A stretch of DNA of 64,000 nt from Nostoc edaphicum CCNP1411 (lineage in GTDB: Bacteria; Cyanobacteriota; Cyanobacteriia; Cyanobacteriales; Nostocaceae): positions 6,099,001-6,163,000 of the forward strand of contig NZ_CP054698.1 of NCBI RefSeq assembly GCF_014023275.1, in the 5' to 3' direction. Below, piece after piece: positions 10,928-42,098 of this stretch. The notes beneath the pieces are model-generated. The model saw only the letters and a program-made list of their open reading frames with translations, ran no database searches and was not told where the DNA came from. Position numbers and translations under genes: made by a program. Every line of letters begins with the position of its first letter. Within the stretch, counting starts at the first letter, position 1.

Positions 10928-11098
<171 letters not shown>

Positions 11099-11190: not shown

Positions 11191-11231
11191 AAAATGATAG
11201 CTGTTCTTTTCTATTAGCTATCATTTTTTTT
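11191..11231 (+). terminator. Strong intrinsic terminator between tRNA 5' half and integrase
   Basis: A perfect 12-bp stem (11191-11202 with 11216-11227, arms AAAATGATAGCT / AGCTATCATTTT), a 13-nt loop and an eight-T tract ending at 11231. It would stop transcripts that start at the truncated tRNA-Cys promoter before they enter the integrase, whose TTG start overlaps the T tract. Confidence 0.85.
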
Positions 11232-12420
11232 GCGAGGTTTTACTGTGGTCGGGGCATCCAGGAATACTATTGGTATCGAAAACTTCCGTGGTTTTTTTAG
11301 GCTGCGGCTACCATCTTCTATAGCTAAAGGATCGTCTAGGTATTTCAGTACTGGCATATCTGCGACGCAAGAAAACCATAAAAAAGCACAAATTATTGCT
11401 TGGGCGATAGAAGAGGATATAGCCAAGGGGGATTTTGACTGGACACTCAATAAATACAAGCCTCAAAGTACAACCTTATTCCAAGCTCAAGAATGGGTTT
11501 GGAATTTAGAGAAGCTTTGGGAAAAGTATTGTGAGTTTATGCGATCGCAACTGTCCGAGACGACTTATCAGAAGGACTACGTTCGGAAGTTCGCTAATCA
11601 TATTAGAACGCTCCCCAGTAAAGATGCTCGGAACGCTATACAGATAAGAGACTATCTTTTAGCTAAATCCTCTACAGAGACTACGAAACGAGTACTTACA
11701 TACCTATCTGCTTGCTGTCGATGGGCTGTGAAATCAAAACTACTGCCGATCAACCCTTTCGATGGGCTGGCAACTGACATCAAGAACTCTAAAAGTAATA
11801 CTCTTACCGCTGCTATTGACCCTTTTTCGATTAAGGAACGAGAGTCAATAATTACTGCTTTTGAAGCGCACAAACTACACAAGCACTATGTTCCGTTCAC
11901 ATCTTTCCTTTTCTTCACGGGTTGTCGCCCAGGTGAAGCGATAGCCCTTACTTGGCAACACATTAACCCTGATTGTACAGAGATACTATTCGCAGAAAGC
12001 TACGACACGAGGCTGAATATTCGCAAAACCACCAAGACAGGTAAAAGTAGGCTATTCCCATGCAACACAAGATTAAGGAAGTTGCTATTAGAGATTAAGC
12101 CAGAAATTTTTACCCCTACTACTACTGTATTTCCGTCCCACCGAGGCGGATTAATAAACGCTAGTAAGTTTACGGCCCAGGTGTGGCGAGGATGTCAGTC
12201 TGGTAAAAAAACCTACAAAGGCATCGTTACCAGACTCGTAGAAACTGGGGAAGTTACCCGCTACAGACCGCCATATAACTGTCGCCATACTTTCATCACG
12301 GAATGTTTGGAGCGCGGCGTGCCCGTGGCCCTGATTTCTCGTTGGGTTGGGAATTCTCCAGAAGTTATTTTTAAACATTACGCGGGGGTCTTGACTGAAG
12401 CTTCAGTCCCAGAGTTCTGA
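11230..12420 (+). CDS. Tyrosine integrase of the 31-kb element
   Basis: A 396-aa integrase of the cyanobacterial tRNA-site type. The N-terminus (residues 10-80) carries the 'IGIENFRGFFRLRLP' to 'DFDWTLNKYKP' segment typical of these proteins and likely binds arm sites. A core-binding SAM-like domain spans about 95-180. The catalytic domain has an Arg box 'FTGCRPGEAIALTW', a box 2 'NCRHTFITE' lacking the first His, 'RWVGNS' (Trp in place of His) and the nucleophilic Tyr in 'KHYAG'. Its paralogue at 42332 shares the same substitutions. The TTG at 11230 sits in a terminator T tract without a clear ribosome site; a GTG about 15 nt later is an alternative. It sits at the attL end as expected for the integrase of the element. 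Confidence 0.9.
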   Translation: MRGFTVVGASRNTIGIENFRGFFRLRLPSSIAKGSSRYFSTGISATQENHKKAQIIAWAIEEDIAKGDFDWTLNKYKPQSTTLFQAQEWVWNLEKLWEKYCEFMRSQLSETTYQKDYVRKFANHIRTLPSKDARNAIQIRDYLLAKSSTETTKRVLTYLSACCRWAVKSKLLPINPFDGLATDIKNSKSNTLTAAIDPFSIKERESIITAFEAHKLHKHYVPFTSFLFFTGCRPGEAIALTWQHINPDCTEILFAESYDTRLNIRKTTKTGKSRLFPCNTRLRKLLLEIKPEIFTPTTTVFPSHRGGLINASKFTAQVWRGCQSGKKTYKGIVTRLVETGEVTRYRPPYNCRHTFITECLERGVPVALISRWVGNSPEVIFKHYAGVLTEASVPEF

Positions 12421-13044: not shown

Positions 13045-16000
13045 ATGATTATGAATTATAGTTGCGATCCAAAACAAAAACAAGATTTTTATTACAACAA
13101 TTATATCACAGAAAAGAGTCAGAAGCTAGACAGAGCAAAGGATATAACCTCACTGACGGGTTACAAAGCTTTTGATGAATTTATCCGCCTCAGTTATAAC
13201 TCAGGCGATACAGCTTGGTTCAAAATCGGCAATAACCGATTCATAGTTGGCCAAATAGATAAAGATGGTAGCTTGGGCGAAGTTTGGGAAACCAAAGGGG
13301 AAAACACAGAACGCAAGAGAACCACACCACATCCAGACGGGTACACATTTCTCTCTGATTTGGCAAAGAGAAACTATGGTGGGGTCTTCTATATTCCTGG
13401 TAAACCTGAAGAGTTCCCGCTCAAAGATTACACCTACGCCTCTAACGATATTGGCGCGGAGATGGACGACGGGACAGAAGAAGAACAACTCGGACGCATC
13501 AAATTCGTAGAGGAATTGAGTGGGTTACAAGCGTCTCTACTGATTGGTTCTGGCGGTAAATCAAAACACACACACTACATTCTTACTGAAAGTGTAGACA
13601 TTGACCGTCGCTCTTATTTTGCTAAATTACTCTGCATTGCTCTAATTGGAGATCCAGCCGTTACCAACGCGCATCAACCAATGAGAGCGCCTGGGTTCCT
13701 TCGTAGAGAAATAAAGGATAATCAATTACGAGAGAAAGAGCAATTACTAGAGAAAGTTGGCGATCGCTACACACCTGAAGCATTTAGCGAAGGGATGGAG
13801 CGCTGTTTCGAGGCTTTAGACTTCAAATTCTACGATGAGGCAGATTTTTCAGAGGAAAGATGGAAAGAACTTAAGCGCGTTCTATCGTCCAAGGATTTTA
13901 ATCGCCTCAAGAAAGAGATTGAAATTAAGAGGATTCTTAGCTTAAGTGAAGAATATCTCCCAGCAAATACAAAGAAGAAGGCATCTGAAGAGAAAGCCGC
14001 TATTCGTAAAACTAAAGCAGAAACCAGTAAAGCGCTGGGCTTTAATTATATCGGTGGCGGGAGTCTGGTAGATGCCGTTAACGAGTGGAAACGCACGGGC
14101 GGCCGTAGCTTGTTTGACTGGAGCGGTCACAATTGGGACGGCGCAGATAAGCGCGGGTGTTGCCCGTGGCATGATTCCACAACAGGTACTAGCTTTTGGC
14201 TGTCTGAACTAGAAGACGGAACTGTACTTGCTCACTGCCCTACCTGTACCGATAACGAAGGCATTGACGCTCTAACTTATCAGTATTCACTCCAGTACGG
14301 CACAGTCACACACCCCACTGGTAAAGATTGGGCAGATTTTGCTAAGAAAGTGACTGGCTTTGTAGATGCTGCCCCATTCACTCCTACACCGGAAGAGGCA
14401 GAGGACTGGAAAGAGAAATATGAACGTGCGCGGGTCGAGAAAGCTATATTTAAGTTCACGCGCAAAGCTGATGTAGAAGTATCTTCTGGCTATCTCCCAA
14501 ACCTTAAACTAAGCGACATTCCTTCTAGGCATCTAGGCTTAAAAGGGGATTGGGGCATCGGCAAGACAACCTTAATCTCTGGTTTATGCAAGGGTTACAA
14601 CGGTAAAATCATCCAAGTTGGACACCTTAACGCACTGTTAGAGAACACCTCACCAAAGTTTCTTTGCATCCACCACAAAGCGCTCAAGGCTAACGGTGAT
14701 TATGATTCATTACATAGCCGAGAGGGTAGCCGGATTGCAATTACCATTGATTCCTTAGCATCTCAGTTAGACCCCGAAAAATGGGCATGGGGTAGAAAAT
14801 TCATACTTATTCTAGATGAGGTTGAGCAAGTACTAGACTACTGCCACCACTCGCAAAACATTAAAAGTAATCGCCTAGCAGCTAGAGCCAAACTGATTTG
14901 GTTGATTAAGAATGCCGAATACATTGTCAGTTCCGATCGTGATTTGTGCGACGCAAGTTTAGATTTTATCGAGGGGATTTGTGGAGACGGCAAGAAGGCT
15001 TACTTAATCCACCACACCGAGCAAAAAGGGCTTGGTAGAACGGTTAAGGTTAACACCAACACTACAAAAGACGTAGTTTTAGAGAGGATGGTGTGGGATG
15101 TTCGCGCAGGAAAGAAGATTGCGATCGCCTGTGAAAATAAAACTGACCTGCTAATGATTGAAAAAATCTTAAGCCAAGTCGGAGTTACAGACAAAGAGTT
15201 CTTTTTCGCTCATGGCGACAACTCCAACGAGAAGGGTGTTAAGGAGGTCATAGCACGGATTAACGAGGAATATACCAATTACAACATCCTCGGTTACACA
15301 ATGACTCTTGGAACAGCCGTTAGCCTGGAAATTCCACACTTTGATAAGGTTTACGGATTCTTTACTGGTGATGCTTTCGGCGCAGGTAAGCAAGCGCAAA
15401 TGTTATTCCGTTACCGGATTGAGTGTGAAATTGAGATTTGGGTTAATCCTCGTAAGCGCACTCTAGAGATTAGCGAAGAGAAGATGCTTAAGGACTTGAC
15501 TAGAAGCGAAAAAGAAAATGGTAAGTTTCTTGCAAGGTTTGACAAGTTAGATCATCTAACTCCATTAGGTGCTTGCCCAACAATCGACGGCTCAATACCA
15601 GCATCAGAGATGGACTGGCTAATGCACGGTTTTGGCATTAGGGCACGGGAAAACGCTTCAATGGCTAATCCATCCCAAAGCCTTTGTGACCTGCTAGAAA
15701 GCGCTGGATTTGATTTAGAGATTGAATGCAGTGAAGATACAGTGAAAACCTTAGCAGGTGAAGAAGGGCGAGAGATTAAGAAAGAAATCAAGGAGAAAGA
15801 TGATATTGCGATCGCCCACGCTAAACTCTTAACCGATGATGAATATAAGGAAGCACTCAAGGGTTCTGGTTCCTTGACTAAAGAGCAACGGAACGAACTT
15901 AAAAAGACTTTCTTAAATAAGGAAACGGGGCTAGAGGTAACGCCAGAGCTAGTTAAGAAGGAACGGACTAAGAACTTTACCAGCGCTGTGAAGATGCTAC

Positions 16001-16776
16001 GGATCGTCCTTGGCAGCGAAGAAGATGCGATCGCCGCAGATTTGACCCAGGCAGAGGGTAAATCTGTAGGAGACAAGAAATATTACAGCCTACGCCGCAA
16101 CCTATTCATTAAGCTCGGCGCAGTTGACTTAATTGAATACCTTATCCGTGGGGGTAGCTATGCCTCTAAAGGTGGTAATTCACTAGTAAAGGAAGTAGCA
16201 AATAATATCCGTATCAATAAGAGCGATATCAAACGCCTACTGGGGTACAAAGTGAATACTGCCAAGATTACCAAGAACGCGATCGGGGGCGAGATTGACG
16301 AAGCGCTACAAAACTACAAAGTCTCTGATGCTAATTTAGTCAACGAACTCTTGGGTAAACTTGCCATCAAACCAGCAAGCAAGGATAAAAGACTGACGAC
16401 CGGGGAGACGTTCAGAATTTACTCTCTTGACCCTCAAAACTGGGATGAGATTACGGGCGTAATTGAGCATCAAAAAACGCTCAAAAACACGCCAAAATGG
16501 GAGACTTTTTTAGAGGCAAAAAAAGCTAAATTTTTAGAGGCTGAAAGCCAAGCAGGGCAAGGGCAAAACATGGCCGCACCCCCTACTAACTTTTCCTATA
16601 TAAAAGACCAAGGGGGTGCGGCCATAAATCAGCCCATTGAAATGACCATCAAAAATGAGCAAAAACCACAACCGCTCCCCCAGGCTTATGAATCTAAGGA
16701 GCTACCCGATCCAACAGTGCGGATGATGGAACGACTAGCCAGGGAGTTTGACCCCAGCCTAGTGCCTTCGTTCTAG
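13045..16776 (+). CDS. CyRepA-like plasmid replication protein (primase-helicase)
   Basis: A 1243-aa multidomain protein resembling the cyanobacterial plasmid replication family CyRepA1. Residues about 60-250 look like a primase/polymerase fold (acidic 'AEMDDGTEEEQ' near 139, 'SKHTHYILT' near 172). A zinc-ribbon-like unit follows (CCPWH near 372 and CPTC near 399). A P-loop helicase domain has Walker A 'GDWGIGKTT' near 501-508 and Walker B 'FILILDEVEQ' near 590. The long C-terminal region is charged and ends in a low-complexity tail. It should initiate replication of the excised element. It is placed directly after the small RHH gene. A GTG/ATG choice does not matter here: ATG 13045 or ATG 13051 are both possible. 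CyRepA naming is from pattern memory; the primase-helicase architecture is visible. Confidence 0.82.
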   Translation: MIMNYSCDPKQKQDFYYNNYITEKSQKLDRAKDITSLTGYKAFDEFIRLSYNSGDTAWFKIGNNRFIVGQIDKDGSLGEVWETKGENTERKRTTPHPDGYTFLSDLAKRNYGGVFYIPGKPEEFPLKDYTYASNDIGAEMDDGTEEEQLGRIKFVEELSGLQASLLIGSGGKSKHTHYILTESVDIDRRSYFAKLLCIALIGDPAVTNAHQPMRAPGFLRREIKDNQLREKEQLLEKVGDRYTPEAFSEGMERCFEALDFKFYDEADFSEERWKELKRVLSSKDFNRLKKEIEIKRILSLSEEYLPANTKKKASEEKAAIRKTKAETSKALGFNYIGGGSLVDAVNEWKRTGGRSLFDWSGHNWDGADKRGCCPWHDSTTGTSFWLSELEDGTVLAHCPTCTDNEGIDALTYQYSLQYGTVTHPTGKDWADFAKKVTGFVDAAPFTPTPEEAEDWKEKYERARVEKAIFKFTRKADVEVSSGYLPNLKLSDIPSRHLGLKGDWGIGKTTLISGLCKGYNGKIIQVGHLNALLENTSPKFLCIHHKALKANGDYDSLHSREGSRIAITIDSLASQLDPEKWAWGRKFILILDEVEQVLDYCHHSQNIKSNRLAARAKLIWLIKNAEYIVSSDRDLCDASLDFIEGICGDGKKAYLIHHTEQKGLGRTVKVNTNTTKDVVLERMVWDVRAGKKIAIACENKTDLLMIEKILSQVGVTDKEFFFAHGDNSNEKGVKEVIARINEEYTNYNILGYTMTLGTAVSLEIPHFDKVYGFFTGDAFGAGKQAQMLFRYRIECEIEIWVNPRKRTLEISEEKMLKDLTRSEKENGKFLARFDKLDHLTPLGACPTIDGSIPASEMDWLMHGFGIRARENASMANPSQSLCDLLESAGFDLEIECSEDTVKTLAGEEGREIKKEIKEKDDIAIAHAKLLTDDEYKEALKGSGSLTKEQRNELKKTFLNKETGLEVTPELVKKERTKNFTSAVKMLRIVLGSEEDAIAADLTQAEGKSVGDKKYYSLRRNLFIKLGAVDLIEYLIRGGSYASKGGNSLVKEVANNIRINKSDIKRLLGYKVNTAKITKNAIGGEIDEALQNYKVSDANLVNELLGKLAIKPASKDKRLTTGETFRIYSLDPQNWDEITGVIEHQKTLKNTPKWETFLEAKKAKFLEAESQAGQGQNMAAPPTNFSYIKDQGGAAINQPIEMTIKNEQKPQPLPQAYESKELPDPTVRMMERLAREFDPSLVPSF
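16570..16625. repeat. Perfect 15-bp inverted repeat inside the replication gene
   Basis: ATGGCCGCACCCCCT at 16570-16584 pairs perfectly with AGGGGGTGCGGCCAT at 16611-16625 across a 26-nt AT-rich loop. It is GC-rich, unlike its surroundings, and lies in the low-complexity C-terminal tail (encoding MAAPP and QGGAA). Possible roles are an origin hairpin, a regulatory mRNA structure or a small inserted palindrome. Confidence 0.9.
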
Positions 16777-17306: not shown

Positions 17307-17864
17307 ATGAAAAATGATTTAGTAAGAGCATCTAATGAAATTTGGGGCTACCGTCCAGAATGGGACTCGCCAAAATCTTATTCTGCTTTTTGTGTATACC
17401 GTGATTTCGGCGTTAATAGAAGCTTAGATTTTACAGCTAAGACTCTGAATAAAAGTGTAGGTCTGATTAATCGCTGGAGCGGCGAGGGTCGATGGGTAGA
17501 ACGTGCAGAGGCTTTTGATATTCATGAGGAGGAAATCGCGCGAGATTTGGGTACTAAGTTAGCAATAGAAAAGCACGTTTTAAGCTTAGAAAAATATAGA
17601 AGTTGGTGTGCAAACCTTGGCTGGGCTAACCTTGAGCTAGCGGCTGATTGTTTAGACATCTCCAAAAAATCGCTAGAGAAATACCGAGACGATCCAGATA
17701 CAAAACTCAAGCCATTTGAAATTAAAGCGTTGTCTAGTGCTGGCGTTTCGAGTGCGGAGATAGGGCAGAAATTGATAAGTGAGGCGTTAGCCGTTGGGAA
17801 GCTTTTAGAGCAATTACCGATTGATGTAGACGCTGAAGAAATCGCCAATCAAGAGGAGGTTTAA
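17307..17864 (+). CDS. Phage small-terminase-like helix-turn-helix protein
   Basis: A 185-aa protein. The first 75 residues fit the phage small terminase/phBC6A51-like pattern: 'SPKSYSAFCVYRDFG', an HTH-like 'LDFTAKTLNKSVGLINRWSGEGRWVERAEAFD', then a long helical region. Small terminase subunits bind phage pac/cos DNA and hand it to the large subunit. Here no large terminase follows; the next gene, 2 bp downstream, is a tape-measure protein. Its SD-bearing 3' end (AGGAGGT at 17853) serves the next gene, so they form an operon. It could instead be a transcriptional or DNA-binding regulator of that operon. Confidence 0.6.
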   Translation: MKNDLVRASNEIWGYRPEWDSPKSYSAFCVYRDFGVNRSLDFTAKTLNKSVGLINRWSGEGRWVERAEAFDIHEEEIARDLGTKLAIEKHVLSLEKYRSWCANLGWANLELAADCLDISKKSLEKYRDDPDTKLKPFEIKALSSAGVSSAEIGQKLISEALAVGKLLEQLPIDVDAEEIANQEEV

Positions 17865-17866
17865 TC

Positions 17867-20800
17867 GTGGACTTAGGTCAACTCGTTATTGGGCTAGCCG
17901 GTGACTACTCTCAGTTACAAAGGGATATAGAACAAGCCAAGATAATGGCTCTACGGCAAGCTTCTCAGTTAGAGAAGAATTTTAGAATCAGCCCGTCACT
18001 TGATACTAAAGCGCTTCAGTCAGCCGCAGAAAGTGCGGGGATTAGCGCGGGTAAAACCATCGCAAAAAGTTTGGAATCTTCGCTAAATTCCTATAAGTTC
18101 TCTAACGCCAGCTTTAAGAAAGCAGGGCAGGAAATCGCTAAGGGTTTAAGCGCGGGGATAAAACAAGGGGAAAATCAAGTAAAAAATGCCTCGGCTCAGA
18201 TGGCAGTGGTTGCGATCGATGAGACTAAGCGCAAGCTAAAAATACGCTCTCCGTCGAAAGTGTTTATGGACATAGGTGGCGATATCGCCGCAGGTCTAGC
18301 CGCAGGAATCGCAACGGGCGGAACACTGGCGATCGCAAATCTGGTTGAGAGTACGATTAATGCGGCTAGAAGCGCTGTAGACAGTGGGCTGGCATTCACT
18401 GGGGACTCAATCTCGAAATACAGTAATTTTAAATCAATATCAACTCAGTTAGAAACTATACAAGGAAGTGCCACGGCTGCGGCTGATAGCTTGAAGTTTC
18501 TGCGGCTAGAGTCTGATCGACTAGCGCTCCCGATGCTGTCCAGTGCCAAGGGCTTTGCTAGTCTCACCGCAGCCACACGAGGCACTGCTCTAGAAGGACA
18601 GAAAACACGCGATATTTTTACTGGCATCGCTACGGCGGCCCGCGAAGCCAATCTAAGTAACGATGATTTCAATGGTGTACTTTTAGCCACGCAGCAAATT
18701 ATCAGCAAAGGGAAAGTACAGGCGGAAGAATTGCGGGGTCAAATTGGCGAGAGACTGCCTGGAGCATTCACAAAAGCTGCCAAAAGCATTGGTGTAACTA
18801 CATCTCAACTAGACAAGCTCTTAGAAAGTGGGCAGCTTACAGCCGAGGTTTTCTTACCAGCTTTCACGCGAGAACTCAGTAATGTTTCTACAGCCAATAT
18901 CACAAAAGCTACAGATAATTCAGCGTCGGCACTGACTAGGCTAAACAATCGCTTAGATGAGCTAAAAATAAGCCTTGGTCAAGCAATAGAACCTGGAGTA
19001 GTAGCTGGATTAAATTTCGCTCAAAAAACGCTCTCGGAACTTGGACAAGCCGGATTGTTTGACGACCTCAACAAATCGGCTAAGGACTTCTCAGAATATC
19101 TCAAGCAGAATCCACAACTCGCCAAAGAAACAGCTAATATCATTCGCTCCGCGCTCAAGGATGCGATCGCAAGCACTGTCGAATTATCGAAAAAACTCGC
19201 CAATTACTTAAGCCAAAATCCTACAGCATTAAAAGACGCAACGAACGCTATAGGCAGTTTTGGCAAGGGTTTAAGTGATTCAGTCGCCTATGCAAAACAA
19301 ATGCTGGGCATCTTTCAAAACATAGGTAAATCTATCGATTTAGCTTATGATAAAGCGTCAAAGTTACTGGGTGGCACACCAGAGCAGCAAGGGCAGTTCA
19401 AGAACTTTCTCAAGTACGGCCCCGCCGCGCTATTTCAATCACCCACATCACCCAACGTAAAATCAAATTTCAAAGCTGCATCTCCCTTGGCTGGTGTCAG
19501 TCTTGAAAAACTGCTAGCCTATCAACCGACTCCAGGACAAGGGTTCTACGGGATGCGGGATGGTGGGAGGCGTAGACACTCTAAAATAGACTTTGATTCA
19601 CGGGTGGGAGCGGGTGAAGGTGCTGTAGCCCAAGCTGCCTTGTCTGGTAGCGCTACGATGCGGCAGATTACCAGCACAAGCGCAGGTATTGACATTGCAA
19701 CAACAGACGCAAACGGTAAGCGCGTGACCGTTGTCTACAATCATCTACGCTTAGGTGATATTCAAAAACTGTTTGGTGGTCAGAAGCAGATACAAGTCAG
19801 CGCGGGGCAAGCACTGGGGCGGATAACTAAAGATGCTCTATCGACTGGCGCACACCTTGATTTTGGTATTAAAGTTAATGGCTCATACGTAGAGCCGCAG
19901 AAGTTTATTAGAGACTATATCCAGCCCATGAGCAAGGCTGGGGCGGTTGGGGCACTGTCTAGCATTTCAAAGCCCACAGCCCCAACCGCCACGGGAGGCA
20001 ATTGGATGCGGACTATTGCCAGCACTTATGGCGCGGGTGATGGTTTTGACGGTCAAAAAACCTCATCTGGGGAAAGGTTCAACCAGAACGCGCTTACCGC
20101 CGCAATGAACGAGAACCTCAAAAAGAACCTCGGCGTTAAGTGGGGTGATAGAGTAGAAGCCGTAAACCCAGCTAACGGCAGGAAGGTAACGGTTAGGATT
20201 ACGGATCACGGCCCATACGAGAGAAAAGATGGTCGCTACGTTCCGCATTCTACCCGTGGTTTGGATTTGTCCACTGCCGCAGCTAAGGAAATTGGCATTA
20301 GTCTGGGTGAGGTTGCTTTTAGAGTTTTGGGTAAGACTAATACCCAGACTCCAAGCAATTCTAAGTTAGTAAGCTCGGTTGCTCCTCCATCCCAGGCACT
20401 CGCAGCAGGCAACCAACCGCCAGAAATCCGATCCATCCTCGAAGGTCAAGAACTCAAGGAAATAGCAGCCCGTCGTCAGAAATTCCGCGAGGCTGCGGCA
20501 CAAATGCAGCAATCATTACAGCAGGCGCGAGATTTAGAATTTTCTGCTGTAAAGAACCCAAGTCTTAGCGATCGCCAAGCTGAGGAAGCGAGAAAACTGC
20601 AACAGCGCTACGACGACGCTTTAAGAGAAGCTATCCAGCGACAACAAGACTCACAATCTAGGTTGGGTATAAACAACGCAAGAATGGGTAGTGGGAGTGT
20701 GCCAGAGCAAGAAGCTAAAGACCTTCAGTTGCAAATCGCGCTTGATAAAAAATCTGTCACTGAACTAGACGGCGTTATCAAACAACTCAGTAATTCTCGT

Positions 20801-22474
20801 GCCCAAGCAACCAAAGAGTTAGCCGTTTTTCATGCCCAGCAATCAGCTACAAGACAACGTGGGGTTAACTTTGAGGCGATGACTCAAGAGGTCGCTATTC
20901 TCCAAGCGCAGATCCAAGGACTAAAACAACTTCCTCAGCAATCGCCTGGGCTTGATAATCTACCAAAGCTTGAGCGGGAGCTATCACTCAAACAAACCCA
21001 ATTAGACTTGGAAAAGAAAATATTTGACCTAAGTGACCGGGAATTTAAGAAAGAAATCGACCCGATCCAGGCAGAGACGCGATTAGAACAGTTACGCAGA
21101 GAGAATGACGCGCTTTTAGTCAATATCAATGCTCAGTACCAGGCATCGGAGGCAGCGATCGCACTGTCAAAAGCCCGTAGAGAGTTAGCCGCAACTGTTA
21201 AAGAGAATACTACCATCGCTGAAGGTTTGCGTAGTCAATCCCAACTTAGAGGCTATGGCATCGGCACGGGCGATCGCCTTGCTATGGAGCGAGACGCTAC
21301 CGCGCTGGATCTAAAAAGCCGCTATGCTCAGGATAAATTCTCACTTTTTGAACGGGCCCGTGAAGAACAGCTAACACCAACTCAAACAAACGGCGAACGA
21401 GTGCGGCTGGCGCTTAGATTTAACGAATCTAATCTATTGAACAATGCTAATTATCAGCGCCAAAGCAAGGATGAAAGCATTACTAACGCTCGGTATTTGC
21501 AGCAGACAGATATAGATTTGCTGGCGGGTAAAGCTGAGTCGCTGCAAGGGCTTGGGCTTGATTACAGTTCTAGAAATATTCAGAAACAAGTCGCTGTTTT
21601 AAATCAAGGATTAAGCTTTCAAGATGCGATCGCAGAGCTTGAGCGATTACGAGAGACATCAAGCCTCACTGTCGCTGAGTTCACTCAAGCCAAGGATAAT
21701 TTAGAAGCAATCAACAACATCAAATTAGAGTCAATTAATAGCGAATTCTCTCAGTTCTCAGACGTTATAAAAGGCATCCAAACAGATAGCCAGAGTGCTT
21801 TTAAAGACCTAATACTTAATACAGAAGACTTTGGTAGTGCAATCTCTAAAATCTTCGAGAGTATTTTGGATAACTTGGCTAGTATGGCTTCGCAAATGCT
21901 TTCGGATCAACTATTCGGAACAATCTTTGGGATGAAAGGGCAGGGCAGTAGTGGTGATAATGGCGGATTTGGCTCAATCCTCAGCACAATTGGCGGTTTA
22001 TTTGGCTCTGGCACTGGCGGCGGAAGCGATTTTAGCTCTTTCCTGGGTGGTTCAGACGGCGGATTTAGCATGATTCCTGGATTTTCTTCTGGCGGGATGG
22101 TGGGAGACATTGCCCGTAGCATGAGCCAGGAAAGGGCAATAAGCGGATATGAGCCACGTTTAATCATCGCCAACGTGGGCGAGAGAGTGTTAAATCCAGA
22201 GGAGACAAAAATCTGGAATCGCCTACAGAGTGCTGGGCGATTGCCAAGCTACGCCAGTGGTGGGATGGTGGGTGGCAATGGCTCATCAGTCCAAAGCAAC
22301 AGTAATTCAGGTGTTAACGTTGGGGGCATAAGCGTTACTATCGCAGGATCGGAAGCGCCAAACTATAACATTCCCCAACTTAAAAAAATTCTTGAGGCAA
22401 AGATACAGGAAGGTATTAAGGACTCTCGCAGGCCCGGTGGTAGCTTGACTCGTGGCAGTATCTACGGGCGTTAA
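17867..22474 (+). CDS. Tape-measure protein with M23 peptidase and RlpA-like domains
   Basis: A 1535-aa protein starting at GTG 17867 behind a perfect AGGAGGT. Residues about 185-335 match the tape-measure N-terminal domain ('ISTQLETIQGSATAAADSL', 'GQIGERLPGAFTKAAKSIGV'). Residues about 555-680 form an M23-type endopeptidase with zinc-ligand-like HSKID and 'GAHLDFGI'. Residues about 712-820 form a double-psi barrel of the RlpA lytic transglycosylase type ('TSSGERFN', 'VRITDHGPY', 'RGLDLSTAAAKEIG'). A long coiled coil (860-1300) and a Gly/Ser-rich end follow. In phages such proteins set tail length and carry wall-degrading activities for DNA entry. No tail tube, sheath or baseplate gene was recognised nearby. 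It could be a satellite tail component or part of another DNA-transfer device. Confidence 0.9.
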   Translation: MDLGQLVIGLAGDYSQLQRDIEQAKIMALRQASQLEKNFRISPSLDTKALQSAAESAGISAGKTIAKSLESSLNSYKFSNASFKKAGQEIAKGLSAGIKQGENQVKNASAQMAVVAIDETKRKLKIRSPSKVFMDIGGDIAAGLAAGIATGGTLAIANLVESTINAARSAVDSGLAFTGDSISKYSNFKSISTQLETIQGSATAAADSLKFLRLESDRLALPMLSSAKGFASLTAATRGTALEGQKTRDIFTGIATAAREANLSNDDFNGVLLATQQIISKGKVQAEELRGQIGERLPGAFTKAAKSIGVTTSQLDKLLESGQLTAEVFLPAFTRELSNVSTANITKATDNSASALTRLNNRLDELKISLGQAIEPGVVAGLNFAQKTLSELGQAGLFDDLNKSAKDFSEYLKQNPQLAKETANIIRSALKDAIASTVELSKKLANYLSQNPTALKDATNAIGSFGKGLSDSVAYAKQMLGIFQNIGKSIDLAYDKASKLLGGTPEQQGQFKNFLKYGPAALFQSPTSPNVKSNFKAASPLAGVSLEKLLAYQPTPGQGFYGMRDGGRRRHSKIDFDSRVGAGEGAVAQAALSGSATMRQITSTSAGIDIATTDANGKRVTVVYNHLRLGDIQKLFGGQKQIQVSAGQALGRITKDALSTGAHLDFGIKVNGSYVEPQKFIRDYIQPMSKAGAVGALSSISKPTAPTATGGNWMRTIASTYGAGDGFDGQKTSSGERFNQNALTAAMNENLKKNLGVKWGDRVEAVNPANGRKVTVRITDHGPYERKDGRYVPHSTRGLDLSTAAAKEIGISLGEVAFRVLGKTNTQTPSNSKLVSSVAPPSQALAAGNQPPEIRSILEGQELKEIAARRQKFREAAAQMQQSLQQARDLEFSAVKNPSLSDRQAEEARKLQQRYDDALREAIQRQQDSQSRLGINNARMGSGSVPEQEAKDLQLQIALDKKSVTELDGVIKQLSNSRAQATKELAVFHAQQSATRQRGVNFEAMTQEVAILQAQIQGLKQLPQQSPGLDNLPKLERELSLKQTQLDLEKKIFDLSDREFKKEIDPIQAETRLEQLRRENDALLVNINAQYQASEAAIALSKARRELAATVKENTTIAEGLRSQSQLRGYGIGTGDRLAMERDATALDLKSRYAQDKFSLFERAREEQLTPTQTNGERVRLALRFNESNLLNNANYQRQSKDESITNARYLQQTDIDLLAGKAESLQGLGLDYSSRNIQKQVAVLNQGLSFQDAIAELERLRETSSLTVAEFTQAKDNLEAINNIKLESINSEFSQFSDVIKGIQTDSQSAFKDLILNTEDFGSAISKIFESILDNLASMASQMLSDQLFGTIFGMKGQGSSGDNGGFGSILSTIGGLFGSGTGGGSDFSSFLGGSDGGFSMIPGFSSGGMVGDIARSMSQERAISGYEPRLIIANVGERVLNPEETKIWNRLQSAGRLPSYASGGMVGGNGSSVQSNSNSGVNVGGISVTIAGSEAPNYNIPQLKKILEAKIQEGIKDSRRPGGSLTRGSIYGR

Positions 22475-22685
22475 TCATTTTTTACGTCAGGCGAATTCCT
22501 ATAGAAGAGAAAAATTAATCAATTCGCCTGACGTAAATCCACGATTGCAGGGAGTGCTATCTGGAATTCGCCTGACGTAAATAGCTTGAAATGCTTATTC
22601 TTTCGTTAAATCAGAATTCGCCTGACGTTTTACAACAGATGTCTATTGTGTTATATTTTATACATAGCTTACAGAGAGCTTACTA
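22475..22685. promoter_or_regulatory. Cluster of GCCTGACGT repeats upstream of RHH/BRO genes
   Basis: A perfect 17-bp inverted repeat (22481-22497 with 22521-22537, core AATTCGCCTGACGTAAA) begins 6 bp after the tape-measure stop. Two further direct copies of GAATTCGCCTGACGT follow at 22564-22578 and 22614-22628. The same core recurs at 23764 and 23854. The spacing and position before the RHH gene suggest operators. The first hairpin may also terminate the tape-measure transcript. Confidence 0.75.
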
Positions 22686-22893: not shown

Positions 22894-23685
22894 ATGTCTA
22901 ATCTAACAATTTTCTCATTTGAAGATCAAGAAGTACGTTTTGTTGGTACTCCTGAAAACCCCTGGTGGGTAGCTCAAGATGTTTGTAAAATACTCGGCAT
23001 CCAAAACGTTACTCAAGCTATATCTAAATTAGATGACGATGAACGATCTATGTTTAACATAGGTCGTCAGGGCGATGCTTGGAGCATAAACGAGCCTGGG
23101 CTTTATTCTCTTGTTGTTACTAGTCGCAAAGAATCGGCAAAACGGTTTAAGAAATGGCTTACTTCTGAGGTTCTTCCATCCATTCGCAAAACCGGAAAGT
23201 ACGAAGTAACCACACCACAATCAGATCCAATACCTCAGCTTGGAGAAAGAGAAGTATTCTTACTTGAAGTACTCAAGCTCGGCGTTGACACTGCTAAATA
23301 CGTCAAAGATGATAGAGCGGTTTTGGTTTATAACACTCAGTTACAAAACCTATCTCAGAGAACTGCTGCATCTCTAACTAGTGTTACTGGTGTTACTACA
23401 CTTCCTACCTTGCCTGAACCTAAGTGGTTGACCCTTTCTGAGGTTCTGGAACGTTATGGATTTCCTCTATCACAGAAAGCCTATCAAAATAGCCTCGGTC
23501 AAATCGGTAAGTTGGTTAAGTCCTATTTCATAGCCGAGACTGGTGAAGCCGTTAAATCAGTCCAGAAGCTCGTAGGCTCTAATCATAACGCGGCTAATAT
23601 CAAAGTTTATCCTGAGCATTATCATGAGCGAATAGTAGATATCGCATTAGAATACTGGGACGAAAAGGGAATCGGAATTAATTAA
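22894..23685 (+). CDS. BRO-N domain antirepressor-like protein
   Basis: A 263-aa protein. Residues 1-105 are a typical Bro-N domain ('FSFEDQEVRFVGTPENPWWVAQDVCKILGIQN', 'DDDERS', 'INEPGLYSLVVTSRKESAKRFKKWLTSEVLPSIRKTGKYE'). The C-terminal half (about 165-260) is a helical domain that I do not recognise; it ends in 'YHERIVDIALEYWDEKG'. Bro-N proteins occur in phages and viruses and act as antirepressors or DNA-binding regulators. An AAGGA site lies 9 nt before the ATG. It lies behind the Arc-like gene and between two copies of the GCCTGACGT repeat family. Confidence 0.9.
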   Translation: MSNLTIFSFEDQEVRFVGTPENPWWVAQDVCKILGIQNVTQAISKLDDDERSMFNIGRQGDAWSINEPGLYSLVVTSRKESAKRFKKWLTSEVLPSIRKTGKYEVTTPQSDPIPQLGEREVFLLEVLKLGVDTAKYVKDDRAVLVYNTQLQNLSQRTAASLTSVTGVTTLPTLPEPKWLTLSEVLERYGFPLSQKAYQNSLGQIGKLVKSYFIAETGEAVKSVQKLVGSNHNAANIKVYPEHYHERIVDIALEYWDEKGIGIN

Positions 23686-23894: not shown

Positions 23895-24557
23895 ATGCAA
23901 GAGTTTTATAGAATTATCGGATCTGCTACGGAAGAACAACGACAGAATTTAGCGCAATTGACAGGTTCGGCATTTGGCGATTCTCCCGAAACTCTTTGCA
24001 ATCACATACGATATCTCAGGGCTGGAAGCATTGGACAGCTTTTTTGGAACAATTCTTGGAAGCAGGTTGTGACAGATGTCGCTGACCACATCGGTATTGA
24101 TTGGTCAGCAACATTAAACGGTCGTAACTGGCATGACTTGGAAACTCAAGAAATAGAAGCTACTGTAGTCTCCAAGCTGTTTCAAAATATGCTTGAACAA
24201 CTTTCACCGGAGCAACAGCAACAAATTGTTATGGAGATGGCAAGAGACGCTAATGATCCAGACATTGCTAACTTGCTGGTAGGTGGTAGTGCAATGGCTG
24301 TTGCAAAAATGAGTGGTTTCGGCGTGTATTTGTTGGCAAGTACCGTACTAGGCGGACTTACTAATACTTTAGGGATTACCTTGCCATTTGCTGTTTATAT
24401 GGGTATGAGTCAAACCATTGCATTTATACTGGGCCCTATCGGATGGGTAGCGCTAACTGGAGGTATCCTCTTTACAATTAATCAACCCAACTGGAATCGT
24501 CTAGCTAATGCTATTGTGTATATTTCAATACTCCGATACTTACCCTCTTCAGGCTAA
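23895..24557 (+). CDS. YaaW-like (DUF3944 / ubiquinol-cytochrome c chaperone-like) protein
   Basis: A 220-aa protein. The first 110 residues are soluble and helical ('SATEEQRQNLAQLTG', 'CNHIRYLRAGSIGQLFWN', 'WKQVVTDVADHIGID'). Residues 125-215 are hydrophobic and glycine-rich, with two or three membrane-like segments ('GVYLLASTVLGGL', 'TIAFILGPIGWVALTGGILF'). This resembles YaaW-family proteins, whose function is unsettled. It stands alone between two repeat clusters, in the same orientation as the phage-like genes. The family call is from overall layout and could be wrong; a membrane-acting effector is an alternative. Confidence 0.55.
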   Translation: MQEFYRIIGSATEEQRQNLAQLTGSAFGDSPETLCNHIRYLRAGSIGQLFWNNSWKQVVTDVADHIGIDWSATLNGRNWHDLETQEIEATVVSKLFQNMLEQLSPEQQQQIVMEMARDANDPDIANLLVGGSAMAVAKMSGFGVYLLASTVLGGLTNTLGITLPFAVYMGMSQTIAFILGPIGWVALTGGILFTINQPNWNRLANAIVYISILRYLPSSG

Positions 24558-25448: not shown

Positions 25449-28199
25449 CTACATCTGATAAACCTTCAGCACCTCATCGCCATAGTGGTTAATTACCTTA
25501 ACAGCAATCTTCCCAGGCTTACCGTCGTTGGTTTGCGGCGGGTCAAAGGGACGGCTGGTAGTGGAGTAGAGGTCTGACCACGCATCTTCATCAACCTCAG
25601 CTTTCAGAGTTTTCTTGAGTTTTTCATAGGGTTGATCTGCTCCGGTGAAGTAGGCATGACGGACAAAAAAGCTTTCGCCGTTATAGTTGGTGTCAATGAA
25701 CCAACAGGCAATGTCATTGGTTGAACTACTGCGGATTTCGCCAGTGGTGGGGTCATAAATATCTAGACCATGCAGAATAGCGGTGACTTTACCGTTATCT
25801 TGTTTTATCTCAACATCTGGTTCCCCAAACACCATAAACAAGTTGCCTGCTCCAGTTTTTTTGAGCAGTTCATCACCCAGAAGCAAGTCAGTGTTCATCC
25901 GCGTTATCAGAACTTGCAGCTTACCGTAGCGTTTTGATTCTTCCGAAACACCAGGGTCAAAGGTAAAACCGCAGACAACCAGCAGGTCATACCCTAAACC
26001 TTGCACAGCTTCTTTCGCAGCATCCTTAATATGGTCTGAGCCAACAGTGCCATATTCAGGGCCAATAGAAACTGCCACCCGTTTCACTTTGCCGTCTTTA
26101 TCAGTGTATTCTCCCTCTGCTTGTATCCAAATGCCAGGATGAGGTTCAAGCGAGTCCAATTTGAGGCGTTCATCTTTTTTAGTGTTCTGAACTCCCGCCT
26201 TCCTTAAGTTCTCAATAATTCTGATTTCAAATTGGTCAGAGGCGTGTTGAGTACCTTCAGCTTCTGAGGCAGGTCGTTCATCGTCGGCGGCAAGGACGCG
26301 GTGAGGGGAAAGGCTTTCTACAGTAAAGGGGCCAGTTACCCGCAAGCGTTTTTTATCTTCATAGGGTTGGTCATAGAGGGTTTCATAATCTGCGTTACGG
26401 GCAATAGATGCGTCAATTTCCTGCTGGCGCTGCTGTCTGAGCTTCGACCACTCTTGCAATAAGTCTTTTGCTTCCTGTGACCATTTATCTTGAGGTTCGC
26501 GGGGGATTTCCCACTCTTCCCAGGATTTTTTGAGGAGTTGGTTTAACTGAGTGCGAATGGGTTCTAGTTTTTGCTGCCACTTGTCGTGGATGGTGTCGAT
26601 TTCGGCATTGTTAGCGATTGCTTTTAGAGTAACGTGAGGAACGCGCTTGTAAACAAAGCCTTTTTTGATATCGCCTTCTGTTTTAATGTTGGTGGATGGC
26701 AGTTGTCCGGTGATTTCTGCTTCTTTTTGGATGCCTTCTGAGGAGTCAGCAAGTAAGTAGTAGGGAAACTGGGCTGACATGAGGCGAGTTCTGGCTAATG
26801 CTAAGGCAACGCGACTGGTATCGATAGTAATCCAGCGTCTTCCCCATTGTTCAGCGACGTAGGCTGTTGTCGAGCTTCCCATTGTTGGATCTAAAACTAG
26901 GTCGCCAGGGTCTGTGGTCATTAGAAGGCAGCGTTTAATAGCTTCTGTAGCTGTTTGGACAACATAAACTTTTGGATCTGTACGGCTTTGAATTCCCCCA
27001 ATATCTAGCCAAATGTTAGATTGATTAAAAACTGGAAAATCATTTAAAAATCTGATAAATCTAATTGAATTCCCCTGAATCATTAAACGTCCTGAAGCAT
27101 CTAACCTTTCTAATCCTTTTACAGTTGTTTTCCAATGCATATTTTCAGGAGGTTTCCAAACCTTTGCACGAAAAGAAAAACTCTGTTCTGATCTTAAATT
27201 TGCCCCTTGTGAAGTAATAGAATCGCATGATACGAAGCTATTAGGATCGAAACATATATGTTTTAACTCTGAATAGCTTGATATAGTACGATATTTAGCA
27301 GCGCCATCATCTCCTGCTACTTTTTCTTTATATAAAGGTCTATATTTTAAATCTGAATAAGATTTTGCATACCATAATATATAATCACTAATTGATGATA
27401 GATAATTACTTGAAAATCCTGCTGTTTTAGCAAAAGTAATCAAACTAACAAAATTTTCACTTCCAAACACTTCATCAAGCAGATTCCTCACCAGATGCAC
27501 ATTCTCATCACCAATCTGCACAAAAACACTACCAGTTTCAGTCAATAATTCTCTCGCCACCATTAAGCGATCGCGCAGATAAGCCAAATAAGAATGAATC
27601 CCTAACTCCCAAGTATCCCGAAATGCTTTAACCTGCTCAGGCTGTCTGGTTACTTCCTCAGCTTTACCATCCTTAACATCTCGCTTTCTGGTTGATACCT
27701 GCCAATTTGACCCAAACTTAATGCCATAGGGGGGGTCTAGGTATATCATTTGCACCTTGCCTTTTAGCCCTTCCTTCTCAGCCAAGGAACCCATGACGAG
27801 CAAGGAGTCACCAAGAATCATGCGGTTAGTCCAACTTACCCCTTCCTTGTGTTGGTAAAAATCAATTAATTTATCAAAAGCCAATCCATTGAAGTCACCA
27901 AATAAACTCAACTGTTCAGGTTGTTCTTTTTTAGCCTGAGTGCGGAAATTTTCAATAATGGCTTGGGGATGAATCTTTTCTTGAATATAAATTGGTACAG
28001 TAGGAATTTCTAAACCTTGACTGTCTTGTTTATCTTTTTCTTTCCAAACTAACTGAGGGTCTAAGGCTGTGTCACGAGGGTAGAGTAAAGGTTTTTGCTC
28101 TTTCTCTTCATCAGATAAAAAATCACGCAGTTCTTCTGTAGGAATATTCGCTCTTTTATCTTTATGCTTAACAGTAGTAATAGGAGTTTTTTTAGACAT
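25449..28199 (-). CDS. Type III-like DNA methyltransferase (Mod)
   Basis: A 916-aa beta-class adenine methyltransferase. Motif IV DPPYGIKFGSNW lies near residue 153 and the SAM-binding motif 'DPTMGSSTTAYVAEQWGRRWI' near 435; the IV-before-I order is that of type III Mod enzymes. The region between (190-430) includes the target-recognition part. The C-terminal 400 residues are an extension rich in helices and a beta domain ('RVTGPFTVESLSPHRV' near 620) seen in Mod proteins paired with BPTD_3080-type endonucleases. It would methylate one adenine in the recognition site and protect host DNA. It follows the helicase-nuclease gene by 59 bp, in the same operon. It looks complete. Confidence 0.9.
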   Translation of the reverse strand: MSKKTPITTVKHKDKRANIPTEELRDFLSDEEKEQKPLLYPRDTALDPQLVWKEKDKQDSQGLEIPTVPIYIQEKIHPQAIIENFRTQAKKEQPEQLSLFGDFNGLAFDKLIDFYQHKEGVSWTNRMILGDSLLVMGSLAEKEGLKGKVQMIYLDPPYGIKFGSNWQVSTRKRDVKDGKAEEVTRQPEQVKAFRDTWELGIHSYLAYLRDRLMVARELLTETGSVFVQIGDENVHLVRNLLDEVFGSENFVSLITFAKTAGFSSNYLSSISDYILWYAKSYSDLKYRPLYKEKVAGDDGAAKYRTISSYSELKHICFDPNSFVSCDSITSQGANLRSEQSFSFRAKVWKPPENMHWKTTVKGLERLDASGRLMIQGNSIRFIRFLNDFPVFNQSNIWLDIGGIQSRTDPKVYVVQTATEAIKRCLLMTTDPGDLVLDPTMGSSTTAYVAEQWGRRWITIDTSRVALALARTRLMSAQFPYYLLADSSEGIQKEAEITGQLPSTNIKTEGDIKKGFVYKRVPHVTLKAIANNAEIDTIHDKWQQKLEPIRTQLNQLLKKSWEEWEIPREPQDKWSQEAKDLLQEWSKLRQQRQQEIDASIARNADYETLYDQPYEDKKRLRVTGPFTVESLSPHRVLAADDERPASEAEGTQHASDQFEIRIIENLRKAGVQNTKKDERLKLDSLEPHPGIWIQAEGEYTDKDGKVKRVAVSIGPEYGTVGSDHIKDAAKEAVQGLGYDLLVVCGFTFDPGVSEESKRYGKLQVLITRMNTDLLLGDELLKKTGAGNLFMVFGEPDVEIKQDNGKVTAILHGLDIYDPTTGEIRSSSTNDIACWFIDTNYNGESFFVRHAYFTGADQPYEKLKKTLKAEVDEDAWSDLYSTTSRPFDPPQTNDGKPGKIAVKVINHYGDEVLKVYQM

Positions 28200-28258: not shown

Positions 28259-31200
28259 CTAGGCTGCTTGAAGGTTCTGGAGAAGTGATGGGTTAGCACA
28301 ACCATGACTAATAAAATTACGAATAGTATCTTCTGCATCCCAAGGGTCAGTGATTTCGATAAAGTTCCACCTACCAAAACCACCATGTTGATTTATCGCT
28401 GGTATCCAAAGATTTTGGGTTGTAGCAACTTTCGCTGCTTTATCTTTTCTGGCTTCTCCTGATACCTCAACAATCAAATTCGATAAATCACCATGCCCAT
28501 CATTTATCCTTGCAATGAAGTCAGGCATATAGTTCTTTTGTTCACCATTTAAGGTATAGGGAATCAAGAAACCGAGTCCCTGGTTTTTGACATAACAAAC
28601 TACTTCATCCATATCTTCCAACACCTGTGCCATCTTCTGTTCCCAACTGTTGGTGTCAGCAACCACATGAGAGATATGACACTTCATAGGGTTAGTCACA
28701 TAAACAGGACGGGCGGTGCTAAAGTCTACATAACTTGTTGAACCCATTGGGTCATAAGGTCGCAATATCGGTTTAAGAGATTTTTCACTTTCTCCAGCAA
28801 CTATTGCCTGATAAATACAATCCGAGGCATCATGGGCATACTCATTCAGCAGTAGCATTTGGGGATATGTCCCAGATTTGTAGGTGACGCATTCTCTTAT
28901 CCACTGCTTTGCTATTTGCAACACCTGGGGAAATAACCAAGCCTGGACTTCTGACTCAAACTCACTGCATCGGAAATACTTTTCTAAGGTAAACTTCGCT
29001 AGCAAGAAAACTACTTCTTGTTCACGTTGCGATCGCAGGTCATCAAGGGTATGAATATTAGACAGACCAATGATAGGGGCAACTGTTGTGCTACTGGGTA
29101 AGTTAGCCGTAGATAGGGAATAGTGACAGCCAGGTTTAGTAAAATCTGGTGTCAGTTTTTTGCTGCTGATTTCGTAACGATAGCCTAACAACTTCGGGAA
29201 AGTAATTTCACAATCAATCCTTTCTGGAAGTGAGCGTACACGAGTAGGCAGTAACCCCGGTTTTGGTGTCTTGTTTGAACCAGCACAGGGAATAAAGGCA
29301 AAGGGAATACCGTAGACTTCGGCATACTCCGGCTCAAACATCCCTTGGTCATTGCTGGTATAGCTAATGCGTCTTAGACCCCTTCCTACTACTTGTTCGC
29401 ACAAAAGCTGAGTACCAAATGCCCTCACCCCCAAGATGTGGGTAACTGTATTAGCATCCCAACCTTCAGTCAGCATGGAAACTGAGACAACACAACGAAT
29501 ATGTTCACCTAGCTTGCCAGCTTTACCTACTGTGTTAAGTACCTCTCGCAACAGGTCTTCATTACTGATTTTGTCTGGGTCTTGACCTGGATATCTATTT
29601 CGGTACTCAGTTTTAAACTCTTCTATTTCCCGTGCTGCGAGTTGTTTAAACTCAGCAGTCATGCTTTCCCCAGACTCTAACTGCTCACTGTCAATCAGAA
29701 TTGTGTTAGGTCGAGATGCCCAGTTACCATCTTTGACATTGCTAAACACCGGTAACTGACCAGCCTTTAAAACAGGTCTGCCATCGGGGTAAGTTCTACC
29801 AGTATCCCAACCACAGATATAGTCATAAACCATCTTCGAGACGCTGGTATTGTTGCAGACTACGATAAAAACTGGTGGTGTGAGTCCCTTGGCTTGTGCC
29901 TCAGAATTTTGCTCCCAGGCTTTGTAAGACTTTTCATAGTTGCCATACAACGTCCGTAGCGCACCTTCTAATTCCTTGGGTATTTTTGGTTCTGGAGTTG
30001 AGGGGACATTTTCTTTAGAACCCCTTCCTTTCTTGGGCAGATGGTCACGAATTAGCGTCCAAATATTGCGATAAGTAGGCAGTTCTCCCTTCATGCTGTC
30101 ATCAGATACAGGCACACGAGGGATTTTGACAATGCCAGATTCAATAGCATCAATTAAGGAGAAATCGGATACAACCCAAGGAAATAAAGTCCCTTCCTTA
30201 TAGCCTGAACCTTTTAAGAAAAACGGAGTAGCTGAGAGGTCATAAACTACCTTTACCCCTAATTTCTGTTGAATAGCTTCTAAGCCTGAAATCCAAACTC
30301 TCGCTTCCTCTTCATTTTTTTTCGCTTCCTTTAAATCATCTCCTTTATATTTTTCTTCATCACCACCAACACGGCGACGGTAACAGTGGTGTGCTTCATC
30401 ATTAATAACAATAATATTTTTCTTAGTCCCCAGTCCTCGACATACCCGATTAACCATCTGAGATGGGGTTTCAGTAAATGGGTTTTCCTTGCCTTGCCTC
30501 AGAATACTTTTAGTTAATGCAGCAGCATTGGTATGCTCTTTGAGTTTGAAAGCATGATAGTTGGTAATTACTATTTTGGCTTTCTCTAATTCTGCAAATA
30601 AATCTGAGGGTACTAAATCTAACTTTTTGTAATAGTTTTCTGGATCGTTGGGCAACAACACACGTAAGCGATCTCGGATTGTAATCCCTGGCGCAACCAC
30701 CAAAAACGTATCACTAAATTCTCGACGCTGAGGATTAGCAATTTTATTGAGGGAATGCCAAGCAATCAGCATTGACATCACGACGGTTTTTCCGCTACCT
30801 GTCGCCATCTTCAACGCTTGACGAAATAGCAACGGGTTAGCGTCCTCTTTAAACTGGTTAAGCTTATTTTTAATCCAAGTATCTCCAGACTTCTCAGCAA
30901 CCTCAGTAATATAAATAACTGTTTCTAAAGCCTCTATTTGACAAAAAAACAGTTTTCTTTCTCGATGTGGATTTGTCCAATGTTCTAATAATCGCCGTGT
31001 TATGGGAGTGATATTGACTGCACTACGATAACCACCACGCCGCCATAATGAAACGCGTTCGCGGATATCGTTAATATCCTTGTTTTCCTCTATTCGGTCT
31101 TGCGTCCATAGACCTAAGTCAAGCTCAAGCTGCTTATCCTGCTTTTTTGGTTTAGCAATGGGAATGAAGTAATGACTTTTGCGCCTAGTATCAACAACGT

Positions 31201-41894: not shown

Positions 41895-42098
<204 letters not shown>

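Follow-up and report, generated by a model that had tools for sequence, protein, structure and literature searches.

Why would an integrated element with replication and partition genes of plasmid type carry one gene for phage DNA packaging and one for the phage tail? The question is raised by a 64,000-nucleotide stretch of Nostoc edaphicum CCNP1411 (contig NZ_CP054698.1, positions 6,099,001 to 6,163,000; this whole stretch is the window, and coordinates below are counted from its first nucleotide). The window contains a 30,967-bp element that encodes a terminase small subunit-like protein (TerS) and a complete tape measure protein (TMP) and no other recognised virion protein. The element is integrated at a tRNA gene, it has an integrase, a CyRepA1-family replication protein and a ParM-type partition protein, and the combination is kept in three divergent sister elements. 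By analogy with known phage satellites, we believe that it is probably an integrative plasmid-type satellite, whose TerS would redirect packaging and whose own TMP would build chimeric tails with the proteins of a helper phage.

TerS, the tape measure protein and the element that carries them

Positions 17307-22474 hold two open reading frames (ORFs) that lie 2 bp apart (aa, amino acids).

17307..17864, + strand: TerS, terminase small subunit-like, 185 aa, ATG start (phrog_6299, E 7.8e-17)
17867..22474, + strand: TMP, 1535 aa, GTG start (Pfam TMP_3, E 9.7e-26; phrog_2335 tail tape measure, E 2.3e-36)
18422..18964, + strand: TMP_3 core, TMP residues 186-366 (Pfam, E 9.7e-26)
19616..19897, + strand: M23 peptidase-like domain, residues 584-677 (Pfam, E 4e-5, below the cut-off in the window copy)
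20018..20302, + strand: DPBB/RlpA-like domain, residues 718-812 (Pfam, E 2e-10)

An earlier note on this DNA, made without database searches, had described a 1535-aa protein with a tape-measure core and M23 and RlpA domains, preceded by a terminase-like protein, and the profile matches bear out both parts of that description. The M23 match of the window TMP scored 24.2 bits against a Pfam cut-off of 28.7 bits; the orthologue in Nostoc sp. PCC 7107 exceeded the cut-off at the corresponding place (30.1 bits). The AlphaFold model of TerS was all-helical (pLDDT 84.7, pTM 0.55).

TerS of the element is, judging from its sequence, a genuine member of a cyanophage TerS family, because it matches phrog_6299 and because family members stand directly before the large terminase subunit gene (TerL) both in Nostocaceae genome G449 (TerL by phrog_38, E 6.2e-59) and in Aphanizomenon phage vB_AphaS-CL131. 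Genome G444 has a layout like that of G449, with a putative TerL. The PCC 7107 TerS had matches in 7 of 50,697 phage records: CL131 (33.5% identity, E 4e-16), S-CRES1 and 2, three PSS2 records and one further phage. Among named phages that infect filamentous cyanobacteria, CL131 thus gave the best TerS match; unlike the element, it is a 112,793-bp phage with a TerL, and its 2131-aa TMP has no BLAST similarity to the element TMP.

The ends of the element were set by a perfect 171-bp direct repeat at a tRNA-Cys gene.

10928..11098, + strand: left repeat copy, marking the left element end; the region upstream of tRNA-Cys plus tRNA nucleotides 1-38
41895..42065, + strand: right repeat copy, marking the right element end; continues into the intact tRNA-Cys
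42028..42098, + strand: tRNA-Cys (GCA), the integration target, intact at the right junction

The right copy starts 133 bp upstream of tRNA-Cys and ends 38 nt inside it, which is three bases beyond the anticodon. The left copy spans this same segment, and there the tRNA is interrupted. A search with the right junction found matches in 53 of 53 genomes of the genus, and we compared the 12 best loci, the window's own and 11 others (several further genomes gave split matches). In all 11 other loci CpeT, tRNA-Cys and an integrase like the one at window position 42320 follow one another in that order, so the element has inserted between CpeT and the intact tRNA-Cys. With its own integrase gene just inside the repeat and an empty site in each of the 11 other loci, it is a discrete integrated element, as a satellite would be.

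The second tyrosine integrase (42320-43570), directly behind tRNA-Cys, was considered as an element gene and rejected, being outside the repeat and behind tRNA-Cys in the 11 other loci. It is an older resident: one unbroken match was found in 8 of those loci (93-98% identical) and a broken or partial one in 3.

The remainder of the backbone is that of an integrative plasmid.

11230..12420, + strand: tyrosine integrase, Int (PF00589, E 2.3e-11; phrog_1, E 3.8e-38)
13045..16776, + strand: CyRepA1-family replication protein, Rep, 1243 aa (NCBIfam NF042913, 243.8 bits, cut-off 200; phrog_4913 replication, E 7.7e-39)
32271..32957, - strand: serine resolvase/recombinase (PF00239, E 1.7e-34)
35129..36940, - strand: 603-aa P-loop ATPase with a hydrophobic N-terminal region (both features by eye; no family above cut-off)
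37006..37725, - strand: 239-aa backbone protein with hydrophobic stretches (by eye; 87% identical in Desmonostoc muscorum; found in 4 of 388 genomes of the order)
37725..38123, - strand: 132-aa backbone protein (76% identical in D. muscorum)
39755..40900, - strand: actin-like partition protein of ParM/ALP type (PF17989, E 1.3e-7; phrog_691, E 1.7e-13)

On the strength of the predicted integrase, CyRepA1 protein, resolvase, ATPase with its two partner proteins and ParM-type protein, the element is an integrative plasmid. The plasmid-like element of 31 kb proposed earlier is therefore real, with perfect repeats at its ends and a Rep above the curated cut-off (200 bits, applied to the window Rep only). 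It has a replication protein of the same NCBIfam family as the CyRepA1 plasmids described for cyanobacteria, as far as the part of PMC10899382 used here covers them, and differs from them in being integrated in a tRNA gene, in carrying TerS and TMP, and in having been seen only integrated in assemblies.

Sister elements and constraint on the TerS-TMP pair

The gene order Int-Rep-TerS-TMP recurs in three sister elements. A profile built from three TerS proteins matched 11 of 217 Nostocaceae genomes, and the full order was found in four elements: those of the window, D. muscorum FACHB-395 (G047), Nostoc sp. PCC 7107 (G377) and N. piscinale CENA21 (G494). In that order they measure 30,967, 23,496, 24,191 and 23,603 bp and are bounded by perfect repeats of 171, 169, 93 and 129 bp. 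Each repeat stops within the anticodon region of a tRNA, which in three of the four is tRNA-Ser(CGA). Calothrix sp. NIES-2100 also carries TerS, TMP and ATPase (locus tags 73850, 73840 and 73770), genome G507 has a 122-aa TerS, and G031 gave a weak partial TerS match. An isolated, decayed remnant had been named earlier as a reason to doubt the pair. We reject that explanation, because the order recurs in three tRNA-flanked sisters with TMP architecture and length conserved, and we conclude from the comparison of sequences that the TerS-TMP gene set is a real, conserved family.

In all four elements the repeats cover 50-133 bp upstream of the tRNA and its 5' half, with perfect identity over 93-171 bp, and thus the integrated element supplies both to the intact tRNA. 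Clusters of a TTCCTTA/TAAGGA-type motif precede terS in four of four elements and lie just behind int in three of four (window 12422-12547 and 17132-17172).

The TMPs kept their length and architecture. A protein search with three TMPs, in which 7,990 candidates were scored, returned 14 proteins at E = 0, followed by a drop to 4.4e-73 (matches to a small part). With the D. muscorum TMP, found from the genome, this gave 15 relatives, which have the same architecture over 35-78% identity. We aligned 13 of them, leaving out P0028 and P0032. The 11 aligned TMPs longer than 1450 aa were 1512-1586 aa (mean 1542, standard deviation 25), a figure that excludes P0026 (1371 aa) and P0033 (1024 aa, labelled partial), and each of the 11 has an M23-type and an RlpA-type region.

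The wall-lytic modules themselves varied among the 13 aligned TMPs. Nine have the first M23 motif, HxxxD, with HLD (eight) or HLH (one) as the last motif. In P0029 the first M23 histidine is missing and HLH is present; P0024, P0033 and the D. muscorum TMP are without the first motif and have HAH or HSH as the last. The RlpA region comes in two forms, short in 5 proteins and long in 8; within it, the residue that is Asp780 in the window TMP is invariant in all 13. We take the M23 and RlpA motif residues to be the catalytic ones. Because these modules differ while length is nearly constant in the 11 longer proteins, the family is a natural experiment on what tape measures do besides setting length.

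These features bear on whether TerS and TMP might be leftovers of an ancestral phage-plasmid, put to use in cells with no helper, for example with TerS binding DNA as a regulator and TMP modifying the wall or being injected. In the usual virion operon TerS is the first gene and TMP a late one, and a deletion within such an operon could join them; CyRepA1 and ParM are plasmid genes, and elements with TerS and no TMP do exist. A free wall hydrolase would, however, have no need of a near-constant length or of an architecture kept by 15 TMPs over such a range of identity, and we consider this origin unlikely.

TerS and TMP diverged more than other genes of the same elements. Between the window and D. 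muscorum, identity was 87% for the 239-aa protein and 85% for a JukA-like protein, and 44% for TerS and 53% for TMP. Between PCC 7107 and N. piscinale, Int was 88% identical (nonsynonymous divergence, dN, 0.07; synonymous divergence, dS, 0.71) and ParM 92% (dN 0.06, dS 0.72), compared with 62% for TMP (dN 0.31, dS 2.7) and 53% for TerS (dN 0.44, dS saturated). The proportion of nonsynonymous differences (pN) was below that of synonymous ones (pS) in every pair compared, most other pairs being saturated at synonymous sites, so both proteins are under constraint. Their divergence beyond that of Int and ParM suggests that TerS and TMP are older than, or have been exchanged independently of, the element ends. 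A fit to different helper phages would explain the pattern; recombination for other reasons would do so too.

An arms race would fit this fast divergence as well, as expected if TerS and TMP were decoys, dominant-negative proteins that poison phage packaging and tail assembly and protect the host without any particle travelling. The element does carry a type III restriction-modification pair and the JukA-like protein, and some known defences act by disturbing tail assembly, to judge from the part of PMC11364771 drawn on here. A decoy would not need a full ruler length and two wall-lytic regions, yet all 11 of the longer aligned TMPs keep them although the modules have been exchanged, and the integrase, Rep and ParM point to a mobile element that would profit from being transferred. 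We regard a decoy as improbable.

Virion genes, the membrane ATPase and the case for a satellite

No TerL, portal, capsid or tail tube protein was called among the 21 element proteins of the window that were scanned (19 with PHROGs, 17 with Pfam), as the earlier note had supposed; the scan did not extend to four ORFs of 62-79 aa (38787-38990, 39326-39535, 41324-41512 and 41562-41801), to any that are shorter, or to those on the strand opposite the listed genes. Nor was there a convincing head, portal, TerL or tail tube protein among the sister proteins scanned (14 of PCC 7107, 11 of D. muscorum and 10 of N. piscinale). As a control we scanned 10 proteins of a prophage of N. piscinale (G494, contig C1, ~931000-959000), which yielded a portal (9.4e-63), a major head protein (9.9e-60), a TerL (3.6e-9) and two more head proteins, along with a TMP that also has phrog_2335 as its top family (6.5e-43) and whose core is 49% identical to that of the window TMP over 189 residues. 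A divergent tail tube could be missed, because the 269- and 204-aa proteins of the prophage tail region received no call. A plain prophage was rejected, since beyond TerS no head or packaging gene was recognised in the element, whereas the control prophage was recognised. The complete tail or capsid module that would have argued for one was not recognised in the window and sister scans, and TerS and TMP among the 21 proteins make up an incomplete virion set of the kind a satellite would have, their redirecting roles being suggested by family membership.

Weak matches were found that a divergent, complete phage or virus-like device would explain, with core genes encoding head and neck and the membrane ATPase serving as packaging motor. 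The D. muscorum ATPase matched phrog_2666, 'terminase large subunit', at E 2.1e-6 and the N. piscinale ATPase at E 0.073; two glutamate-rich proteins matched phrog_10, 'major head protein', at E 0.072 and 0.0039; and the core proteins of 239, 132, 96 and 90 aa have no Pfam or PHROGs family. Against this, the window ATPase had no PHROG match, the library does recognise portal, head and TerL in a Nostocaceae prophage, and the ATPase-239-132-ParM module occurs with no TerS or TMP match, next to a large serine recombinase, on contig C1 of genome G425 (~60100-77700; L039, L040). We think such a device very unlikely.

The ATPase did not track the TMP. Sixty of 217 Nostocaceae genomes matched a profile of the window-type ATPase, most of them only near the C-terminus of the profile, and 11 at E < 1e-30. 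Just 2 of these 11, the window's genome and D. muscorum, carry the element TMP; in two others, G404 and G480, TMPs of prophage type lie on different contigs. The PCC 7107 and N. piscinale ATPases are too different for this profile. Even between the window and D. muscorum the N-terminal 271 residues of the ATPase are 65% identical and the rest is not alignable.

These results argue against a conjugation-like transfer device that would combine the wall-lytic domains of the 1535-aa protein with the ATPase at 35129, one of the two hypotheses of the earlier note. Wall-lytic domains are common in transfer systems, and the D. muscorum relative of the ATPase carries PF01935 (a precomputed match), which we take to be HerA-type and whose superfamily includes DNA translocases, so that a TraB-like role is possible. 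The idea is unsupported because so few genomes with a strong ATPase match carry the TMP; moreover, the ATPase domain is variable, Pfam scans of 17 element proteins gave no relaxase or type IV secretion family, and the wall-lytic domains sit within a protein with a phage TMP core and a nearly constant ruler length. We consider such a device extremely unlikely.

The other hypothesis, a phage satellite with its own tape measure, is the best supported: a full-length TMP is conserved beside a TerS of a cyanophage family, and the mechanism has been demonstrated for phage-inducible chromosomal island-like elements (PLEs), satellites of Vibrio (PMC12987554; here and below, the part of that source used for this comparison). 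These tail-remodelling satellites, reported in 2026, put their own TMP into chimeric helper tails, and deletion of tmp cut transduction by ~99.9% (PLE11), 96% (PLE1) and 99% (PLE4). Like PLE1, PLE4 and PLE11 of V. cholerae, the element is integrated, of satellite size, and encodes a TMP with an incomplete virion set. It differs in that the partner of its TMP is TerS, where PLEs have a tail assembly chaperone and in some cases a baseplate hub; it also has a cyanobacterial CyRepA1/ParM backbone and M23 and RlpA domains in its TMP, and the searches identified no helper for it. Putative tmp genes are also reported in PLE-like elements and, outside Vibrio, in some capsid-forming phage-inducible chromosomal islands (cf-PICIs; PMC12987554, Extended Data Fig. 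10). The main text of that paper mentions neither cyanobacteria nor terminase.

With respect to other satellites, no capsid gene was recognised in the element, unlike cf-PICIs, which make their own capsids. Satellites of the SaPI/PICI type (SaPI, Staphylococcus aureus pathogenicity island) use their own TerS to steer helper packaging to satellite DNA, and the element likewise has TerS as a would-be packaging-steering gene. It differs from them in having plasmid-type replication and partition genes of cyanobacteria and no recognised PICI regulator or capsid-remodelling gene.

We infer that the element is packaged and exchanges tail parts, as follows. Upon infection by a tailed cyanophage, or its induction, the element would excise and replicate. 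TerS would steer the large terminase of the helper to element DNA, which would be packaged in helper capsids. The element TMP would take the place of the helper's in the tails, where it would set tail length and give the particle its own pair of wall-cutting domains for entry. At roughly 0.15 nm per residue, a ruler of about 1540 residues would correspond to a tail of about 200-230 nm. Between phage events the plasmid genes would maintain the element.

Several results weigh against a satellite with its own tape measure. Matches to the window TMP came from 871 phage records; none extended over 80% of the protein, the best being 38% identical over 20%, and the C-terminal 685 residues of the TMP matched 0 of 50,697. 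From both it follows that no known phage has a matching tail. A search of the window's genome found no second TMP and thus gave no sign of a resident helper whose tail is similar. More generally, no helper phage was identified in the phage-record and carrier-genome searches. No counterpart of the element was found in IMG/VR, where scans with the 239-aa protein and TerS gave no relative (the TMP N-terminus found 18 loci at 24-31% identity). Unlike in PLEs, no tail assembly chaperone family was found among the neighbours of TMP, though a divergent chaperone could be missed. Among the relatives, the sister Reps resemble the window Rep only remotely (22-27% over part of the length), and the N. piscinale rep is split over frames. 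A 20.6-kb contig of G442 contains Int-Rep-TerS and gave no TMP match; a TMP match was likewise lacking in G447 and G478, where TerS lies in stretches that match the ATPase module.

Some of the searches for a helper were too insensitive to be informative. PF04860 was found in 0 of 5 carrier genomes and phrog_38 only weakly in 2 of 5 (E 4.6e-4 and 8.8e-4), and both searches missed the N. piscinale prophage that PHROGs recognises. The CL131 TerL gave weak matches in 7 of 7 genomes (best E 3.7e-7, 27%). Searches of PDB sequences with two of the ATPases and TerS returned nothing convincing. The N. piscinale prophage, which has a TerL, a portal, a head protein and a TMP of the same PHROG, is a possible helper type.

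A broader proposal is more tentative and, in our judgment, rather less likely to be right than wrong: that filamentous cyanobacteria host a lineage of plasmid-type satellites with a minimal, exchangeable TerS-TMP cassette, in which the tail is rebuilt in length and in wall-piercing tool, and that the cassette is replaced to follow helpers while the backbone stays. If true, and as far as our searches show, no tail-remodelling satellite would have been described before in cyanobacteria or on a plasmid backbone; the literature searched (no preprints and few subscription papers) contained no cyanobacterial satellite with a tape measure. Such a separate cyanobacterial family, cut down to TerS and TMP, would hint that satellites use tail remodelling more widely. 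The element is also a candidate vehicle by which nitrogen-fixing filamentous cyanobacteria could exchange genes, including those for defence. The satellite idea can be tested directly, because the culture-collection strains Nostoc sp. PCC 7107, N. piscinale CENA21 and Calothrix sp. NIES-2100 carry the element or the TerS-TMP pair.

Cargo, noncoding sequences and neighbouring features

The remaining recognised genes of the element lie between TMP and the resolvase.

22894..23685, + strand: Bro-N antirepressor-like protein (PF02498, E 1.1e-22; phrog_130, E 5.8e-45)
23895..24557, + strand: JukA-like 220-aa protein (PADLOC, E 8.3e-14; 85% identical in the D. muscorum element)
25449..28199, - strand: type III DNA methyltransferase, cargo (PADLOC, E 5.4e-301; PF01555)
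28259..31294, - strand: type III restriction subunit-like helicase/nuclease, cargo (PF04851, E 4.9e-11; PADLOC REase_III, E 1.5e-10)

The restriction-modification pair, the JukA-like gene and other genes are probably exchangeable cargo.

Inverted and direct repeats flank the Bro-N gene (22481-22628 and 23742-23882), and in D. muscorum a related copy lies in front of the JukA-like gene. We considered whether the inverted repeats belong to a genome-wide miniature inverted-repeat transposable element and rejected this, as their 20-nt core has three matches in the whole genome, all at the Bro locus.

A noncoding segment at 33407-33739 is 89% identical to the D. muscorum element (L023:1218-1555), exceeding most element genes. 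No Rfam gathering score was reached there (best E 0.063, nearby), and the segment folds little better than shuffled sequences (z -1.80 and -0.85). It is a candidate origin, centromere or RNA.

In G425 the ATPase-239-132-ParM module apparently lies inside a cytochrome oxidase subunit I gene (named by eye), a position that can be likened to that of the developmentally excised elements known from heterocyst formers. Outside the element, the window contains an AdoCbl-II riboswitch (57694-57777) and a match to a single CRISPR-DR28 repeat (59685-59708).

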